From the NCBI GenBank assembly GCA_021822605.1, contig JAKAQL010000019.1, forward strand, positions 1 through 36,431: a DNA stretch of 36,431 nucleotides. Reading direction: 5' to 3'. Numbering within the stretch: the stretch's first letter is position 1; every line of letters starts with the position of its first letter. The notes beneath the pieces were generated by a model. The model ran no database searches, was not told where the DNA came from, and was given only the letters and a program-made list of their open reading frames with translations. Positions 12,628-19,256 of this stretch are shown here, piece after piece. This DNA is from Actinomycetes bacterium. GTDB taxonomy: Bacteria; Actinomycetota; Acidimicrobiia; Acidimicrobiales; Acidimicrobiaceae. The position numbers were made by a program, and so were the translations under genes.

Positions 12628-13401
12628 TCAACCATTACTCACCCACGCCACGTTCTGGGCAACACCCTCACTCCCCTCCTCGAGAGGCCGCAGTCTCGCA
12701 AGCATGCTCCGCACAACTTCAGCTAGCAGTACTGGTGCTGAATGCAGCACGTCGTGGTCAGCCGTTGGCAGCACGGTGAGCGTGGCCTGTGGGAGACGAT
12801 CAGCTGCGTGCGCCATCGCGGCAAGTGGCACCACCCGGTCGCGTAGGCCCGCGACCACCACCGAGGGGCAACGAACTTTGGGCAATTCACTCTCCACCAA
12901 CCGCAGTTCACCAAGTAGATGGCGCTGTTCTGCCAAGAAACTCCGTCTCGTCCGATCAAACTGGGACCGACGCGCCGGGCCAAGGCTGACCCCAGCGATG
13001 AGAGCAGAGGTCATTGCTCCAAAGAATCGCGCTGCGAGAAGGCGATCGACCGCGACTAGTGACGTTTGGGTGATGGGAGGGGCGATCAGAATGAGCCCTT
13101 TGACACGCTCAGGATCCAACTGCGCAGCACGCACGGCGATCGTTGCTCCCAAGGAGTGCCCAATCAGAACAGCCTGGGGCTCTTTCAATTGGGCCAACAC
13201 CCACCAGGCATTGGCCTCGATCCCGATCACGCCCAACGGGTTGGCCCCCCACCCGGGACGGTCAAGACTCACCACTGGCCAACGATGATCCATCCATCGA
13301 TAGACTGGAGAGAAGTCCTCCTTTTGCCCCGGCTGTCCATGAAGAAAGATCACCTCCATCGCGTTGTCACTGTCCGTCATGATGAAGTTCTGCGTCGACA
13401 C
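12628..13401 (-). CDS. Alpha/beta hydrolase
   Basis: Serine hydrolase of the alpha/beta fold. 257 residues. The oxyanion-hole HGQPG (21-25), nucleophile elbow GHSLGA (Ser83), acid AGLRDRVVP (Asp188) and catalytic His in TADHDVLHSAP (His216) are all in place, so it should be active. A helical cap of about 60 residues follows the nucleophile strand. Substrate unknown; haloperoxidase/esterase-like relatives are common. A GTG at 13401 is preceded by GAGG; ATG codons at 13380 and 13359 are alternatives and would remove a non-family leader. It overlaps the end of the EamA transporter gene, so the two are probably co-transcribed. Confidence 0.88.
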   Translation of the reverse strand: MSTQNFIMTDSDNAMEVIFLHGQPGQKEDFSPVYRWMDHRWPVVSLDRPGWGANPLGVIGIEANAWWVLAQLKEPQAVLIGHSLGATIAVRAAQLDPERVKGLILIAPPITQTSLVAVDRLLAARFFGAMTSALIAGVSLGPARRSQFDRTRRSFLAEQRHLLGELRLVESELPKVRCPSVVVAGLRDRVVPLAAMAHAADRLPQATLTVLPTADHDVLHSAPVLLAEVVRSMLARLRPLEEGSEGVAQNVAWVSNG

Positions 13402-14227
13402 GAACCTCAGAACGGGCTAAATAGATCAATGCAAGTATTTCGACAGCAAGTGCACCAAGACTCTCTATAGCACTCGAACCGCCACGAAAAAGTGGTGTCT
13501 GTAGCGCAACCGTACTGATTGCAATGGCGGCGATTGGTTCACCAACCGTAACCAACGGCAACACCCGTGCCAAACTCTGCTGTTGAAAGGCACTCTGCAC
13601 TACCAGCAAGGCAAGTCCTCCTACTATGACGAGTACCCAAAGTTCCCAATGCTCTAGGGTGCGTGGCGCTCCTTGCTCGGTCCAGATAATCCCGACCTCA
13701 CGCTCAAAAATCGAGACGACCCCGAGAAGCAGTGCACCTATCATGGCCTGCATCCGACCATGGCCCGCCAACAGTGGACGCAAAAGAGTGACCGTCAAAA
13801 CACCGATGACAATACCGAGCGACCCGATCACGATAGACGCGTCGACGTAGATGGTCCGTCCACTCGCTTGCGGACTGAGAACAAGAAAGGTGATCAAAGC
13901 ACCGCAACTCACAAGGAGCGCGATCAGGTCGCCGACGCCAATAGGACGACGTGCTAGAAAATGTTCGAGGAGGATAGCAAGCACAAAGCCACTCGCCAAA
14001 ATCGGAAGCACCTGCGGAACCGAGCCGTACTTCAGTGCAAAGAACTGAGAAAGACCCCCAACGACATCGAAGAGTGCACCTAATCCAAAGCGTGGATTGG
14101 CGAGCAGTCTCCATAGAAGACTAAACCGCAGATTGAGTTCGCTCGCCGATGCTGTACTCGCTTGGAATTGCAATACGGCAGCCATTCCAAAACAAACCGC
14201 AGCTAATAAGGATAGAAGCACCACCAC
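13367..14227 (-). CDS. EamA/DMT-family transporter
   Basis: Membrane carrier of the drug/metabolite transporter superfamily. About 286 residues and 9-10 hydrophobic helices, with the family-like start VVLLSLLAAVCFGMAAVLQ, LKYGSVPQVLPILASGFVLAILLEHF in the first half, and SLARVLPLVTVGEPIAAIAISTVAL in the second, reflecting the internal duplication. The GTG at 14227 places the start at the first helix; it follows TAGACT by 10 nt. The frame extends to a TTG at 14275, which would overlap the divergent glycosyltransferase gene. Substrate unknown. The hydrolase overlaps its 3' end by up to 35 nt. Confidence 0.8.
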   Translation of the reverse strand: MVVLLSLLAAVCFGMAAVLQFQASTASASELNLRFSLLWRLLANPRFGLGALFDVVGGLSQFFALKYGSVPQVLPILASGFVLAILLEHFLARRPIGVGDLIALLVSCGALITFLVLSPQASGRTIYVDASIVIGSLGIVIGVLTVTLLRPLLAGHGRMQAMIGALLLGVVSIFEREVGIIWTEQGAPRTLEHWELWVLVIVGGLALLVVQSAFQQQSLARVLPLVTVGEPIAAIAISTVALQTPLFRGGSSAIESLGALAVEILALIYLARSEVRVDAELHHDGQ

Positions 14228-14237
14228 GAGGTCTCTA

Positions 14238-14243
14238 AGTCTA
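14238..14243 (-). promoter_or_regulatory. Possible -10 (TAGACT) for the EamA gene
   Basis: On the minus strand TAGACT lies 10 nt before the GTG at 14227. If used, this promoter and the plus-strand TAGAAT at 14255 sit nearly back to back. Confidence 0.3.
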
Positions 14244-14254
14244 AGGCGGACGAG

Positions 14255-14260
14255 TAGAAT
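14255..14260 (+). promoter_or_regulatory. Putative leaderless -10 (TAGAAT) for the glycosyltransferase gene
   Basis: TAGAAT ends 8 nt before the ATG at 14269, and the intervening GATCTGCA has no Shine-Dalgarno match. The arrangement resembles the fdhD upstream region. Confidence 0.45.
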
Positions 14261-14268
14261 GATCTGCA

Positions 14269-16041
14269 ATGTCAAGCACTAAGGCACTCCTGCTGTCGGC
14301 CAGAATGGGAGGAGGCCATAATGGAGTGGCTCACGTCATCACCGAGGAGCTCAACAGCTACGGGATTGAGTGCGAGACTCGTGACTTTCTTGATGCCTCA
14401 CCCCGTGTGGGGCGACTTTTGGAGCGAGGTTTCAAACTTGAGGTCGAGCGCGCACCATGGGCCTATCAGCTCGAATTCTGGCTTTGGAACACCTTCTCTC
14501 CAATGGCTACTTTTACCCGTAGGGCTCTACAAGCCTTCTTTCAGCGTGGCGTTGTCCGCTGGATCGAGGAGACGGAACCTGACATTATCATTGCCCTGCA
14601 CCCGTTTAGTGCCCAACTCCTCGGACAGATGCGCCATCAACGAAACCCGGTGATCTCACACCGACCGATCGCCACCTTCCTCACTGACTACTCCGTGCAC
14701 CCGCTGTGGGTCCACCCCGCCGTCGATCTCCACCTCTGTGTCTCCGAGACGGCGGCGGTCCAGGCACGGAACCGAGCTGGCGCCAACGGCGAGATCGTTG
14801 TCACCGGTCCTTTTGTCGACCAGCGTTTCTTTCGCGATGTCGATCAGTCAACAGCGAGGGAGGCCCTTGGCGTTCCAAGCCATCAATCGGTAGCGCTCAT
14901 CGCCTCGGGTTCTTGGGGTGTAGGGGATATCGCCCAAACCTTCCAACTCCTCGCCGCCCAAGAGGATGTCTACCCCATAGCCCTTTGCGGTCACAACTAT
15001 GATCTCCAAGCACAGCTCGAACGTTGTGGAGGCGGATTATCCGTCGGCTGGACCGAAGAGGTACGCCTTTACATGGCAGCAGCCGACGTGGTCATCCAAA
15101 ACGCTGGAGGGTTAACAGCCCTTGAGGCCATGGCGGCGCGACGCCCGGTAATCTCCTACCGGCCAATCGCCGGGCATGGCCGCGAAAACGTGGCAGCGAT
15201 GGAGTCGGTCGGTGCTACCGTTTGGTGCCATGACGAGAAGCAACTGCTTCAGCAGGTACATGACTTGAGCAACGATCCAGGCGAACAGGTCAACAAGCAA
15301 CTCGACCAGTTTCACACCGCACCTCACCAGCCGATCCTTGAACTTCTGCATGAGGCTCGGCTGGTGCCAACAACTCGACATGGCGTCTGGGCACTTCGCG
15401 CCACGAAATCCGCTATCATGCTGGTCGTGCTCTTCGTGATTGCCAACCTACTCTCGGGCGTGATCGGTTATCACGGCCTCAATTTGACGAAAACCGCGAA
15501 CAAATCCAGCTATGTCTACCTTTCAGTTCGCCTCCCTACCGGGGCGCTCCTGAACCCAAACTTCGACAGCATGACCGCTGACGAGGGTATCGGAGTCGTG
15601 ATCACCGGGCAACAGGCGCTAGCTCATCCGAGCGTCATCCGTTATGCTTTCCATCAGGGTATCGAAGTGATCAACGGCGGCACCGGCACCTCCTCAGACT
15701 TTAACTTTATTCTTCCCGAAAATGATCTATCGTCAGGGCGTGCCGAGCTGGCGCACGTTCTCGGCGTGCAGATTAACTCCTATCTCCCACAGAACACGAT
15801 GAATGCTGTCGATCTCGCGTGGGCCTCGCTCCACCACCAGACGATCATCCCCGCTCGCATCGTCTCCCACCACTTCAACCTGACACCGCACCCAGGTGCC
15901 ATTGTGGAACTGAATCTCAGTCAGCTATCGATCACGAATGCAGAGGTCGACCTCCAGGAGGAGCTCAAACGCCTCAACACAGACCATCTCACCCTTGCTC
16001 CGTTCGCAACCCTGCATGGAGCTGAAAGTGTGCACGCATGA
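14269..16041 (+). CDS. MGDG-synthase-like glycosyltransferase fused to a degenerate NodB-like domain
   Basis: 590 residues in three parts. Residues 1-365 are a GT-B glycosyltransferase like monogalactosyldiacylglycerol synthase/UgtP: KALLLSARMGGGHNGVA at the start, FLTDYSVHPLWVHPAVD, then VTGPFVD and a C-terminal donor site QNAGGLTALEAMAARRPVI. A transmembrane helix follows (about 381-403). Residues 414-580 align by pattern with NodB polysaccharide deacetylases (VVITGQQALAHPSVIRYAFHQGIEVINGG for the FFVxGxxxxxHPxLxxxxxxxGHExxxH region, and PGAIVELNLS for PGSIVLLH). The metal Asp pair is replaced (LPTGALLN) and the HxxxH is lost, so this domain is probably inactive. The GT likely builds a membrane glycolipid. 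ATG 14269 matches the family start. It overlaps the active deacetylase gene by 4 nt. Confidence 0.8.
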   Translation: MSSTKALLLSARMGGGHNGVAHVITEELNSYGIECETRDFLDASPRVGRLLERGFKLEVERAPWAYQLEFWLWNTFSPMATFTRRALQAFFQRGVVRWIEETEPDIIIALHPFSAQLLGQMRHQRNPVISHRPIATFLTDYSVHPLWVHPAVDLHLCVSETAAVQARNRAGANGEIVVTGPFVDQRFFRDVDQSTAREALGVPSHQSVALIASGSWGVGDIAQTFQLLAAQEDVYPIALCGHNYDLQAQLERCGGGLSVGWTEEVRLYMAAADVVIQNAGGLTALEAMAARRPVISYRPIAGHGRENVAAMESVGATVWCHDEKQLLQQVHDLSNDPGEQVNKQLDQFHTAPHQPILELLHEARLVPTTRHGVWALRATKSAIMLVVLFVIANLLSGVIGYHGLNLTKTANKSSYVYLSVRLPTGALLNPNFDSMTADEGIGVVITGQQALAHPSVIRYAFHQGIEVINGGTGTSSDFNFILPENDLSSGRAELAHVLGVQINSYLPQNTMNAVDLAWASLHHQTIIPARIVSHHFNLTPHPGAIVELNLSQLSITNAEVDLQEELKRLNTDHLTLAPFATLHGAESVHA

Positions 16042-16751
16042 AGACCACTACTGCCATCGCCACCCTCGCTAGTGCCAAAATTGCGCTCCACGTTGGGACG
16101 TTTTTGGCGCATACATGGCTCCTTGCGCCACTGACCGCCCCGTGGCTCCTCGGCAATGGTCACCCGCAGTCCATTGCATTGACCTTCGATGACGGCCCAG
16201 ACCCGATCTCAACCCCGCAGGTACTTGACATCCTTGAGCGCAATGCTGTCAAGGCAACCTTTTTTGTGCTCGGCGAGATGGTCGACCGTCAGCCACAACT
16301 CATCCGTGACATCCTCGCGGCAGGCCATGAACTTGGCGTCCATGGCTACTGGCACAAGAATCATCTCTTCCGTAGTGCTCGGAGCATCCGCTATGATATT
16401 GCCCGCACACTGGCCGCGGTCGAAGCCGCCGGCGGGGTTCGACCCACCTGGTACCGACCACCCTATGGTGTAGTCACCAGAGCTGATCTCACCGCTGCCC
16501 ATGCGGAGGGTTTACGAATCGTACTTTGGGGTACCTGGGGCAGAGACTGGCGTCGCCAAGCGTCCGCGGTCTCAGTGATGGCAGACTTGCGGTCACGTCT
16601 CCGTCCCGGTTCTACCATACTTCTCCATGATTCCGATCACACCTCGTACCCGGGATCGTTTCAGACAACCATACAGGCTCTGCCCCAGCTCATCGACCTG
16701 GCCCGCTCTCAGGAGCTAGCGTTTGTCACCCTCGCTCACCACGGCATCTGA
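16038..16751 (+). CDS. Polysaccharide deacetylase (NodB homology domain)
   Basis: Carbohydrate esterase family 4 enzyme that removes N- or O-acetyl groups from glycans. 237 residues with all catalytic motifs: TFDDGPDP (Asp51/Asp52), HGYWH (His102/His106), RPPYG (140-144) and ILLHDSD (His197). An N-terminal hydrophobic stretch (residues 5-38) may anchor or export it. The ATG overlaps the stop of the upstream glycosyltransferase (ATGA), so the pair is translationally coupled; it probably trims the product of that enzyme or a related envelope glycan. The 3' end overlaps the convergent permease gene by 36 nt. Confidence 0.92.
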   Translation: MKTTTAIATLASAKIALHVGTFLAHTWLLAPLTAPWLLGNGHPQSIALTFDDGPDPISTPQVLDILERNAVKATFFVLGEMVDRQPQLIRDILAAGHELGVHGYWHKNHLFRSARSIRYDIARTLAAVEAAGGVRPTWYRPPYGVVTRADLTAAHAEGLRIVLWGTWGRDWRRQASAVSVMADLRSRLRPGSTILLHDSDHTSYPGSFQTTIQALPQLIDLARSQELAFVTLAHHGI

Positions 16752-17822
16752 GTCCACCGATCCGAGACGACGACGCAACCACGGTGCGATCAGGCGTCGT
16801 GCAAGGACTTGGAGACCGCTTGCAATGGGGATCCCAACGAGCGCACCAGGTACTCCAGCTAACTGCGCCCCGATGAGGACAGCCAACAAAATCCAGAGGG
16901 GATTCAGCTGCACCGTGTGGGAAAGAATCACCGGATTGAGAAGGTGATTCTCGATCTGCTGATAAATGAGGAAGACAACCAACAGGATCACCGCTGGCAC
17001 CAGTCCGTGCAACAAAGCAAGTCCGACGGCTGGAATGCCTGCTAAGAGACCACCGACCAGCGGAATGAGATCTACCAAACCAACCCAAACCGAAACGAGG
17101 AGCGCAAAGGGAAGCCCGAGTGACCGGAAGGTAACATAGACGACGATACCGGCAACGATCGAGGTTGCTAAGTTGCCAAGCACATAACCGCTCACTGCCA
17201 CGCCCGTCTCGTGCAGAGCACTCCGCAGGTTCCCCTGACGCTCGACTGGCAGCATGCCAACAACGACATCGATTCCCTTTGGCCCTTCCAAGGAGAAGAA
17301 TATCGTCAACATCGCCGTGATAACCGCATCCGTCAAAAACGACAGGATCCCCTTGGCCGCCAACAACGCAGGTTCGAGCGCGGTGCTGGCGAACTTAGCC
17401 ACCCCTTGCGCAGAGAGATTCAGATAGTGTTCGAGGTGGAATCTATCTAACAACGACACAATACGAGTCTTCTTGTGGGTTACCGCTCGAATGAGACCAG
17501 GAAGATCATTGGCAAGGCGAACACCAGCAGCGTACAGCGGAACACTGAAGATAAGAAGAAGGCCGACCAACAGTCCGGTGGCGACGACTACCGTCAGAGC
17601 AACGGCCACCCCTCGCGGGAGTCGCCAGCGTCGTAACAGGTGGACAAAGGGTTCAACGATGATCGCCCCAACGATTGCGACCAGTACCTCAATCGCTAGG
17701 ACCTTGATGTAGAGCACAAAGGCGAGAGCCAATAAGACTCCGAGGATGCCGATCTCTGCCAGAAAAATCTGCTTTGCCAACCCCTGATACCGGTGGGAGT
17801 GCGAGGGCTCTTGCGACGTCAT
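16716..17822 (-). CDS. AI-2E-family (PerM-like) membrane permease
   Basis: Eight-helix-type membrane protein of the AI-2E transporter/PerM family, whose members export varied small molecules or ions. About 368 residues. Two helices at the N-terminus (IGILGVLLALAFVLYIKVLAIEVL, VAIVGAIIVEPFVHLL), then VVVATGLLVGLLLIF and a long amphipathic stretch. The conserved GLVDLIPLVGGLLAGIPAVGLAL and the end block NPVILSHTVQLNPLWILLAVLIGAQLAGVPGALVGIPIA are strongly typical. ATG 17822 is preferred over a TTG at 17834. Family membership does not fix the substrate; autoinducer-2 export should not be assumed. Confidence 0.88.
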   Translation of the reverse strand: MTSQEPSHSHRYQGLAKQIFLAEIGILGVLLALAFVLYIKVLAIEVLVAIVGAIIVEPFVHLLRRWRLPRGVAVALTVVVATGLLVGLLLIFSVPLYAAGVRLANDLPGLIRAVTHKKTRIVSLLDRFHLEHYLNLSAQGVAKFASTALEPALLAAKGILSFLTDAVITAMLTIFFSLEGPKGIDVVVGMLPVERQGNLRSALHETGVAVSGYVLGNLATSIVAGIVVYVTFRSLGLPFALLVSVWVGLVDLIPLVGGLLAGIPAVGLALLHGLVPAVILLVVFLIYQQIENHLLNPVILSHTVQLNPLWILLAVLIGAQLAGVPGALVGIPIASGLQVLARRLIAPWLRRRLGSVDSDAVVSEGDKR

Positions 17823-17834
17823 CGACACCCGCAA

Positions 17835-18092: not shown

Positions 18093-19256
18093 GTGAGCAC
18101 TTGGCGGTCCAAGAGTGGTGGGAGTCGCCGTCGATCCTCCCATCGTCTACCGACTGAACAGTCGCGCGAAGTCATCACTGGGACGCGGCGTAGTCTTGGC
18201 AAGCTCGTCCGGCACTTTGCAATCCGCGGCATCTGGGGATTCGCGATCCTTCTCGTCGTCGAATATCTGGTCATTCCACAGATCGCTGGCGCGCGCAAAA
18301 CCATCCATCTACTCAGTCATGCAAACTATTGGCTCATCCCTTTGTCGGTTCTTGCCGAAGCATTTTCCCTCTTCGCGTACGCAAAACTCACCTCAGTCGT
18401 GCTGCCTCAGCCACAGCCCTCTTTGAAATCTCTTGCCAAGGTCGACCTCTCTGGGCTCGCCGTCTCCCATGTGTTGCCAGGAGGAACTGCGAGTGGTGCA
18501 GGACTGACGGTACGTCTACTCAACGGCCTGGGTGTGCGTGGGACCGATGCCGGTGTCGCCTTGGCAACCCAAGGAATTGGATCAGCCGTCGTGCTCAACC
18601 TCATGTTGTGGCTAGCCCTCATCGTCTCGCTGCCCCTGTTCGGGTTCAACACTCTCTACCTCGTTGTGGCCGGATTAGGGATCGTCCTGATGGCGGCTGT
18701 GATCGGGCTGGTGCTCACGCTCACTCGAGGCAACGATCGTGTGGTACTACTCGTAGACAAACTTGTCAGCAAGTTACCTTTCCTCAGGCGCTTCCAAGGA
18801 TCAATTCACTCGGGTATTATCCGCGCTGGCGAGCGAGTTCGGGCACTTGCAAGTGATCCACAGCTCCTCAAACGAGCCATCACGTGGGCTGCGTGCAACT
18901 GGCTGTTAGACGCGCTCAGTCTCTGGATTATGTTGCTAGCCTTCGGATCACTTGTCAACCCTGACGCGTTACTCGTCAGCTACGGCATCGCCAACGTCGC
19001 CGCTGCGATTCCCATCACCCCTGGCGGGTTGGGGGTGGTCGAGGGAATTATGATACCGCTCATCACTGGCTTTGGCACCTCGAAGGGTATCGCGATCCTT
19101 GGTGTGCTTTCGTATCGACTGTTCAATTTCTGGATTCCAATCCCGATCGGCGTGGGCACCTACGTTTCGCTCAAACTCAGTCGCGGGGAGGAGATCACTA
19201 TGGAACTCGACAGGATCGACCCACCCCCAGACGACGAGGACAAGCCTAAGCGATGA
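18093..19256 (+). CDS. YbhN/UPF0104 flippase-like membrane protein
   Basis: Integral membrane protein of the lysylphosphatidylglycerol synthase transmembrane-region (YbhN, UPF0104) family, proposed to flip lipid-linked molecules. 387 residues: a basic cytosolic N-terminus of about 45 residues, then about eight helices. Family hallmarks are DLSGLAVSHVLPGGTASGAGLTVRLL (Pro-Gly-Gly core) and NVAAAIPITPGGLGVVEGIMI near residue 310. The C-terminal tail is acidic (DPPPDDEDKPK). The soluble lysyltransferase domain of MprF is absent, so this is the transporter-like part only. GTG 18093 is used. Its closeness to the glycolipid-type glycosyltransferase hints at lipid traffic, without proof. Confidence 0.85.
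   Translation: MSTWRSKSGGSRRRSSHRLPTEQSREVITGTRRSLGKLVRHFAIRGIWGFAILLVVEYLVIPQIAGARKTIHLLSHANYWLIPLSVLAEAFSLFAYAKLTSVVLPQPQPSLKSLAKVDLSGLAVSHVLPGGTASGAGLTVRLLNGLGVRGTDAGVALATQGIGSAVVLNLMLWLALIVSLPLFGFNTLYLVVAGLGIVLMAAVIGLVLTLTRGNDRVVLLVDKLVSKLPFLRRFQGSIHSGIIRAGERVRALASDPQLLKRAITWAACNWLLDALSLWIMLLAFGSLVNPDALLVSYGIANVAAAIPITPGGLGVVEGIMIPLITGFGTSKGIAILGVLSYRLFNFWIPIPIGVGTYVSLKLSRGEEITMELDRIDPPPDDEDKPKR

Follow-up and report, generated by a model that had tools for sequence, protein, structure and literature searches.

Genes of the locus

The stretch of DNA analyzed here (referred to below as the window) is one entire contig of 36,431 bases from a 2.8 Mb genome. An ORF of 590 amino acids on its plus strand (14269–16041) encodes, according to domain matches and an AlphaFold model, a fusion of a glycosyltransferase (GT), a membrane helix, and a CE4 pseudoenzyme; this protein is designated S. 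The next ORF of the same strand (16038–16751, 237 amino acids) encodes D, a CE4 polysaccharide deacetylase with an N-terminal hydrophobic segment. The stop of S and the start of D share a 4-nt ATGA overlap (16038–16041, plus strand), and both ORFs lie where the preceding sequence-only reading had placed them. Further downstream, the plus strand harbors F (18093–19256), an MprF-type flippase-domain protein of 387 amino acids recognized by PF03706 (98.2 bits, cut-off 33.4) and TIGR00374 (71.2 bits, cut-off 43.2). Two genes of the minus strand complete the picture: a DMT-family transporter (13367–14275; NF038012, 51.8 bits, cut-off 50), divergent from S and possibly a second lipid transporter, and an AI-2E family transporter (16716–17834; PF01594, 173.4 bits). 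The window thus holds together the genes of an MGDG synthase-type transferase, a CE4 deacetylase, and a PF03706 flippase (starting at 14269, 16038, and 18093, respectively), the last two being separated by the AI-2E transporter gene alone.

The full-length AlphaFold model of S comprises the GT domain up to residue ~366, a helix at residues 371–402, and a third domain at residues ~413–583. The GT domain (residues 1 to ~366; 14269–15366, plus strand) is an MGDG synthase-type glycosyltransferase: it scores 56.9 bits against PF06925 (cut-off 25) and displays an MGD1-like fold, the MGD1 structures 4x1t and 4wyi being its top Foldseek matches (E 1.7e-15 for 4x1t). In the profile comparison with solved structures, S is nearest to UgtP (9wde, E 4.5e-45) and MGD1 (4wyi, E 1.8e-36), which places this domain in their family; the best-matching stretches of both are confined to the GT region of the profile. 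The model of UgtP diglucosyl diacylglycerol synthase, NF010135, was not reached (123.1 bits vs. the equivalog cut-off of 500).

The neighboring deacetylase scores 120.1 bits against PF01522 (cut-off 23.1), and its best solved relative is 7y51 (E 2.1e-34). Its catalytic residues, namely D51–D52 in the TFDDGP motif (MT1; 16188–16193, plus strand), H102-x3-H106 (MT2; 16341–16355, plus strand), and R140, are preserved in 68/68 of the D proteins, and D170 and H197 in all 67 that are readable at these positions. Judged by these residues, D is an intact CE4 deacetylase, in agreement with the sequence-only reading. Peptidoglycan deacetylases are found among the best solved relatives of D, and, at E ≤ 1e-3, the D profile hits the window's genome only once. 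Both observations would fit a scenario in which polyprenyl phosphate or else a polymer of the cell surface is the substrate of the GT domain, D being a peptidoglycan or polymer deacetylase that is merely co-transcribed. We regard this scenario as improbable: in the same profile comparison, MurG is far weaker (E 7e-4) than UgtP and MGD1, and the linkage to a flippase gene also speaks against it.

The C-terminal domain of S

The C-terminal domain of S (CTD; residues about 413–583, 15505–16017, plus strand) has no match of its own in Pfam or NCBIfam. In particular, it fails the curated cut-off of PF01522, a model listed for only one of 31 CTD members (E 0.12) and not matched by the CTD of the window. 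At the same time, four kinds of evidence agree that the CTD has the NodB fold. First, hhalign aligned the 31-row CTD profile with the D family over 169 collinear columns (E 3e-5, probability 73%), and the comparison of 74 CTDs with 68 D proteins yielded a score of 48.6 (91%), the controls being 17.2 for the reversed D profile and at most 17.3 for 20 column shuffles. Second, the CTD profile run against 177,635 PDB sequences returned Bacillus subtilis PdaA entries as the top three (whole-sequence E 0.0099–0.014; the best single stretch alone, E 1.6); a single-sequence phmmer search of PDB with the window's CTD found nothing. Third, a Foldseek search with the AlphaFold model of the CTD (pLDDT 79.6, pTM 0.81) yielded 37 structures at E ≤ 0.001, each of which is a CE4/NodB-type protein judging from its title. 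The top match was the CE4 pseudoenzyme 6hm9 (TMq 0.71); 4l1g was matched with E 9.5e-9 and TMq 0.69 (chain 4l1g_D) and, in VIA-align, with Z 17.2 and rmsd 3.1 over 181 aligned residues, and the BA3943 pseudoenzyme structures with Z about 16. Fourth, the D profile was matched directly by CTDs from three other genomes (E 2e-5 to 1.4e-3). Hence the NodB pattern that the sequence-only reading had recognized in the last ~170 residues of the transferase is borne out, by structure prediction as well. With regard to a possible origin of the CTD from its neighbor D, the CTD profile scored higher against nine CE4 domain pieces from eight loci (86.2) than against D (48.6), but these pieces had been collected as weak CTD-profile matches and the alignment depths differ, so the scores are no proof that the CTD is closer to general CE4 enzymes.

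The residues underlying CE4 catalysis are gone from this fold. As aligned in the 74 fusion domains, the Asp pair is present in 0/74 (its positions in the window are taken by R421–L422, 15529–15534, plus strand, according to the CTD–D profile alignment), the first metal His in 0/74 (Gly in 73), the second metal His in 9/74, and the MT3 Arg in 0/74. In the window, the place of the first metal His (MT2) is occupied in the alignment by N469–G470–G471 (15673–15681, plus strand). Judged by sequence, the CTD has thus lost CE4 activity in all homologs collected; the loss of the Asp pair and metal site was claimed correctly by the sequence-only reading. Instead, the CTD displays a conserved set of its own, i.e., G470, G471, and the near-invariant, CTD-specific D515 (15811–15813, plus strand), each kept in 73 of the 74 domains, followed by P507 (71), N469 (64), and H523 (55).

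The domain is kept by purifying selection: the dN/dS of the CTD amounts to 0.075–0.21 in 13/15 same-genus pairs (those computable), with dS mostly saturated. In the single clearly unsaturated pair (L003–L004), dN/dS is 0.04 for the GT domain, 0.21 for the CTD, and 0.07 for D. The looser constraint on the CTD relative to the GT domain in this pair, along with the absence of the helix and CTD in several branches (see below), would be compatible with the two serving only as a membrane anchor or spacer, the CE4 fold having no ligand. This option seems quite improbable, since the fusion is persistent and since a mere anchor would hardly be expected to keep N469, G470, G471, P507, and D515 in 64–73 of 74 proteins.

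The predicted membrane helix of S (residues 371–402; 15379–15474, plus strand) is suggested by the AlphaFold model (at low confidence) and by the KD maximum of the linker (2.56, residues 382–400). A hydrophobic linker segment was found in 65/74 S proteins, a clear helix being absent in the other nine. In these 65 proteins, the flank next to the GT domain has a mean charge of +3.8 and the one next to the CTD a mean charge of +0.6; the former is the more positive in 59, and the two are equal in five. Under the positive-inside rule, the GT domain would therefore face the cytoplasm and the CTD would be located outside the membrane, where the sequence-only reading had put it. As for D, an N-terminal hydrophobic segment is recognizable in 61/68 proteins (7/68 are without a clear one), so D is probably anchored outside too, although the known analogs leave its location uncertain.

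Distribution, gene linkage, and copies lacking the CTD

The fusion is retained in other genomes: 74 distinct S proteins were collected, the window's included, from related and hence not independent genomes. The complete fusion locus is present in 30/36 genomes of the family (counting the window's own). Strong CTD-profile matches were obtained in 38/298 genomes of the order, 32/395 of the class, and 2/396 of the phylum (G012, a member of the same family, and the genome of the window itself), these samples overlapping. Weak matches were set aside in 4 of 42 genomes for the order, 6 of 38 for the class (G326 and G433 among them), and 5 of 7 for the phylum. The four order and five phylum genomes (one shared) were rejected as CTD bearers, since the D profile recognizes their proteins much more strongly (E 3e-27 or lower), which makes them ordinary CE4-domain proteins; some of these ordinary proteins carry a changed MT1. 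A scan of genome contigs with short peptide patterns, the one search to extend beyond the phylum, returned one relative. Every CTD found resides in such a fusion, save three cut by contig ends (L037, L071, L088), which were left out of the 74 together with a partial match (G027).

The pairing of the fusion with an active-type deacetylase, pointed out from the window alone, recurs: D is situated within 400 nt downstream of S on the same strand in 67/74 cases. Among the exceptions, D lies 1.6 kb away in G009 and about 5 kb away in G021; it is on another contig in G147 (as a neighbor of F) and in G280 (S being located at the end of its contig); in G394 and G367, the unpaired S is a second copy in a genome that also holds a paired one. 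No D-type gene was found in G097, a genome 78% complete. In the order sample, D-type genes at E ≤ 1e-60 occur in 37/38 genomes with a strong CTD match vs. 15/260 of the others.

As for the flippase, 25/40 genomes have a PF03706 gene downstream of S, on its strand and no more than 8 kb away; each of the 40 holds 1–13 such genes (the distances were read by hand). The 15 misses include all six genomes from outside the order (0/6), one of which, G394, has a PF03706 gene about 6 kb upstream of S on the other strand. Among 21 neighborhoods (five from the same genus) compared by blastp with the window's genes, F and the divergent DMT transporter were each detected in 17, and the AI-2E transporter was detected in 14.

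For the 15 D-bearing genomes of the order sample without a strong CTD match, one locus had been collected before and 14 were fetched, along with those of G112, G147, and G021. Leaving aside G147 and G021, 15 loci were assessed. In seven of them, D is accompanied by a CTD-less transferase belonging to the same subfamily, D being directly downstream in five and divergent in two; one has a transferase fragment at a contig end, and one a transferase of another subfamily. At the remaining 6/15 loci, some of them at contig ends, no transferase was seen in the fetched stretch, so D does not always adjoin a transferase. The seven CTD-less transferases stop at most 40 residues past the GT model, so the helix and the CTD are missing together. 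Since these copies were found by starting from D, their adjacency to D is partly by choice, and D-less copies would escape such a search.

In the IQ-TREE phylogeny of 52 GT domains rooted on two paralogs, the CTD-less copies occupy four separate positions among the CTD-bearing sequences, which requires at least four changes in CTD presence; the AU test rejects their union into a single clade (p 1.5e-44, the group being defined by the trait). Two paralogs from G055 (L039, L040), devoid of both CTD and D, also branch inside the S clade in a FastTree analysis; they were excluded from the IQ-TREE set together with four other paralog or other-subfamily rows and a duplicate (L038 = L159). The simplest reading is that the CTD is ancestral and was lost repeatedly, with the change counts alone unable to separate gain from loss.

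Because the CTD-less copies of S still have the deacetylase, the CTD looks like an accessory of S rather than an obligatory activator, and in seven genomes the pathway apparently operates in its absence. Accordingly, the activation of the neighboring deacetylase, proposed in the sequence-only reading, is disfavored as a requirement by the absence of the CTD in several branches. A mirror-tree comparison (53 of the 68 pairs, thinned at 85% GT identity) showed no special CTD–D signal: the partial correlation was 0.35 for CTD–D given GT and 0.40 for GT–D given CTD.

The absence of special CTD–D covariation and the joint absence of helix and CTD in copies with D are also in line with the CTD sensing conditions outside and regulating the GT domain: binding of the glycolipid, of the product of its deacetylation, or of some other glycan would alter GT activity by feedback across the helix, with no contact with D. 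The single helix connecting an outer fold with a cytoplasmic enzyme and the conservation of NGG and D515 would suit this role as well. Taken alone, it leaves the adjacency of D in 67/74 unexplained, yet D also adjoins the CTD-less transferases. We consider such outer-face feedback rather unlikely, but it is the main rival to the reading preferred here, i.e., that the CTD holds a headgroup or docks D.

Known systems and the proposed pathway

The combination of functions encoded at this locus has a counterpart in Clostridioides difficile, where hexSDF codes for an MGDG synthase (HexS), a polysaccharide deacetylase (HexD), and an MprF-like flippase (HexF). According to the available text of the source, the cluster is required for an aminohexosyl glycolipid (product type, aminohexosyl-hexosyl-diradylglycerol) that matters for daptomycin and bacitracin tolerance; flipping by HexF is a proposal, and HexSD without HexF still made the product (PMC10128005). 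S, D, and F share these three functions within one cluster at the level of annotation. Unlike in hexSDF, an opposite-strand AI-2E transporter gene separates D and F in the window, and S carries a fused pseudo-deacetylase, of which the available text on hexSDF makes no mention (PMC10128005). A second system, gpgSDF of Pseudomonas aeruginosa, comprises a glycosyltransferase, a deacetylase, and a predicted flippase and is described in the accessible part of its source as giving rise to an amino-sugar lipid built on phosphatidylglycerol (PMC12713373). It is analogous in function but belongs to other protein families: GpgS is a family 4 glycosyltransferase, and GpgD is a COG3233 protein predicted to be cytoplasmic (PMC12713373, same part). 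The NCBIfam models for the gpg steps, NF053787 and NF053788, were not reached (22 of 480 and 10.7 of 280 bits, respectively).

Precedents for the two halves of S exist separately. The CE4 pseudoenzymes BA3943 (7bkf, 6hpa, 6hm9) and BA0150 (4m1b), which combine the CE4 fold with a changed catalytic motif, are among the best structural matches of the CTD (PMC6115787, PMC10967932, as far as their available text goes). Unlike the CTD, they are not part of a glycosyltransferase and, in the accessible text, are presented as secreted or N-terminally anchored polysaccharide-deacetylase proteins (PMC6115787). The fusions of the BA3480 type (GT2–NodB) resemble S in uniting a glycosyltransferase and a polysaccharide-deacetylase annotation in one membrane protein (PMC6115787, same text), but differ from it in being multi-spanning and of the GT2 family. 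The sequence-only reading knew of no described pair with this architecture; the synthase–deacetylase pair as such is known (hexS/hexD, gpgS/gpgD), as are, in the sources cited, CE4 pseudoenzymes and annotated GT2–NodB fusions. The new part is the CE4 pseudoenzyme fused to an MGDG-type transferase, a combination not found described in the literature searched (most subscription journals lying outside the search).

Since the gene content equals that of hexSDF, and gpgSDF does an analogous thing, S, D, and F are taken as a hexSDF-like pathway of an amino-sugar glycolipid, with the CTD holding the N-acetylated headgroup or docking D; we lean slightly towards this reading as a whole. The cytoplasmic GT domain of S would add N-acetylhexosamine to a diacylglycerol-type lipid, F (perhaps along with the DMT transporter) would carry the glycolipid to the outer face, and D would deacetylate it at that face, so that the headgroup becomes positively charged. 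The CTD, presumably outside and tied to the GT domain by one membrane helix, retains the fold and the NGG...D motif in spite of its lost catalytic residues; most likely, it would hold the N-acetylated headgroup or dock D and thereby bring cytoplasmic synthesis and external deacetylation together at one spot. The need for a flippase and the outside location of D are not certain, given the product made by HexSD without HexF and the predicted cytosolic GpgD in the available descriptions of these analogs. A stronger version, in which S both captures the flipped N-acetylated headgroup via the CTD and docks D to form a single membrane-spanning machine for synthesis and deacetylation, is offered tentatively and appears unlikely.

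A search of titles and the beginnings of abstracts for Acidimicrobium lipids returned nothing usable, and a link between the putative amino-glycolipid and life at low pH is a speculation. CE4 pseudoenzymes are known as structures but, to our knowledge, mostly have no assigned function. At the locus described here, a CE4 pseudoenzyme is fused to a glycolipid synthase, and the gene of the active enzyme is adjacent; this arrangement occurs in 30/36 genomes of the family and a minority of those of the order and class. With related synthases devoid of the CTD at hand, the same pathway can readily be compared in the presence and absence of the pseudoenzyme.

Transporter genes flanking the glycosyltransferase and the deacetylase

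The gene encoding the MGDG-synthase/UgtP-type glycosyltransferase (S; 14269-16041, forward strand), which carries a C-terminal CE4/NodB-fold pseudoenzyme domain (CTD), lies divergent from a gene for a DMT-family transporter (13367-14275, reverse strand). With the coordinates as listed, the latter overlaps the start of S by 7 nt, and its true start codon may be situated further inside the listed ORF. A blastp comparison with the window genes places the DMT-family transporter, which could be a second lipid transporter, next to S in 17 of 21 neighbourhoods. The same comparison recovers an AI-2E family transporter in 14 of the 21; in the window, its gene (16716-17834, reverse strand) is located between the CE4 deacetylase gene D (16038-16751) and the PF03706 flippase-domain gene F (18093-19256), on the strand opposite to both.

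Transferases at a distance from D or without it

In the relative G021, S and D are borne by the same contig (C150, locus L162; 1433-3196 and 7763-8746, respectively), about 5 kb apart, and the D match contains one TAA stop inside the matched stretch. Second copies of S with its CTD occur in G394 and G367 (L129 and L131), with no deacetylase within approximately 3.3 kb downstream. Another genome, G055, harbors two further transferases (L039 and L040) devoid of both CTD and D, which fall within the S clade of the FastTree tree.

Retention of D and F

A search of the whole assembly of the window's genome with the D profile (E <= 1e-3) returned a single match, suggesting that D may be its only CE4 deacetylase close to the D kind. 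In three other genomes (L147, L160, and L161), D is found near F while S is absent from the stretch examined; hence, D and F represent a pair that can be retained without S nearby.
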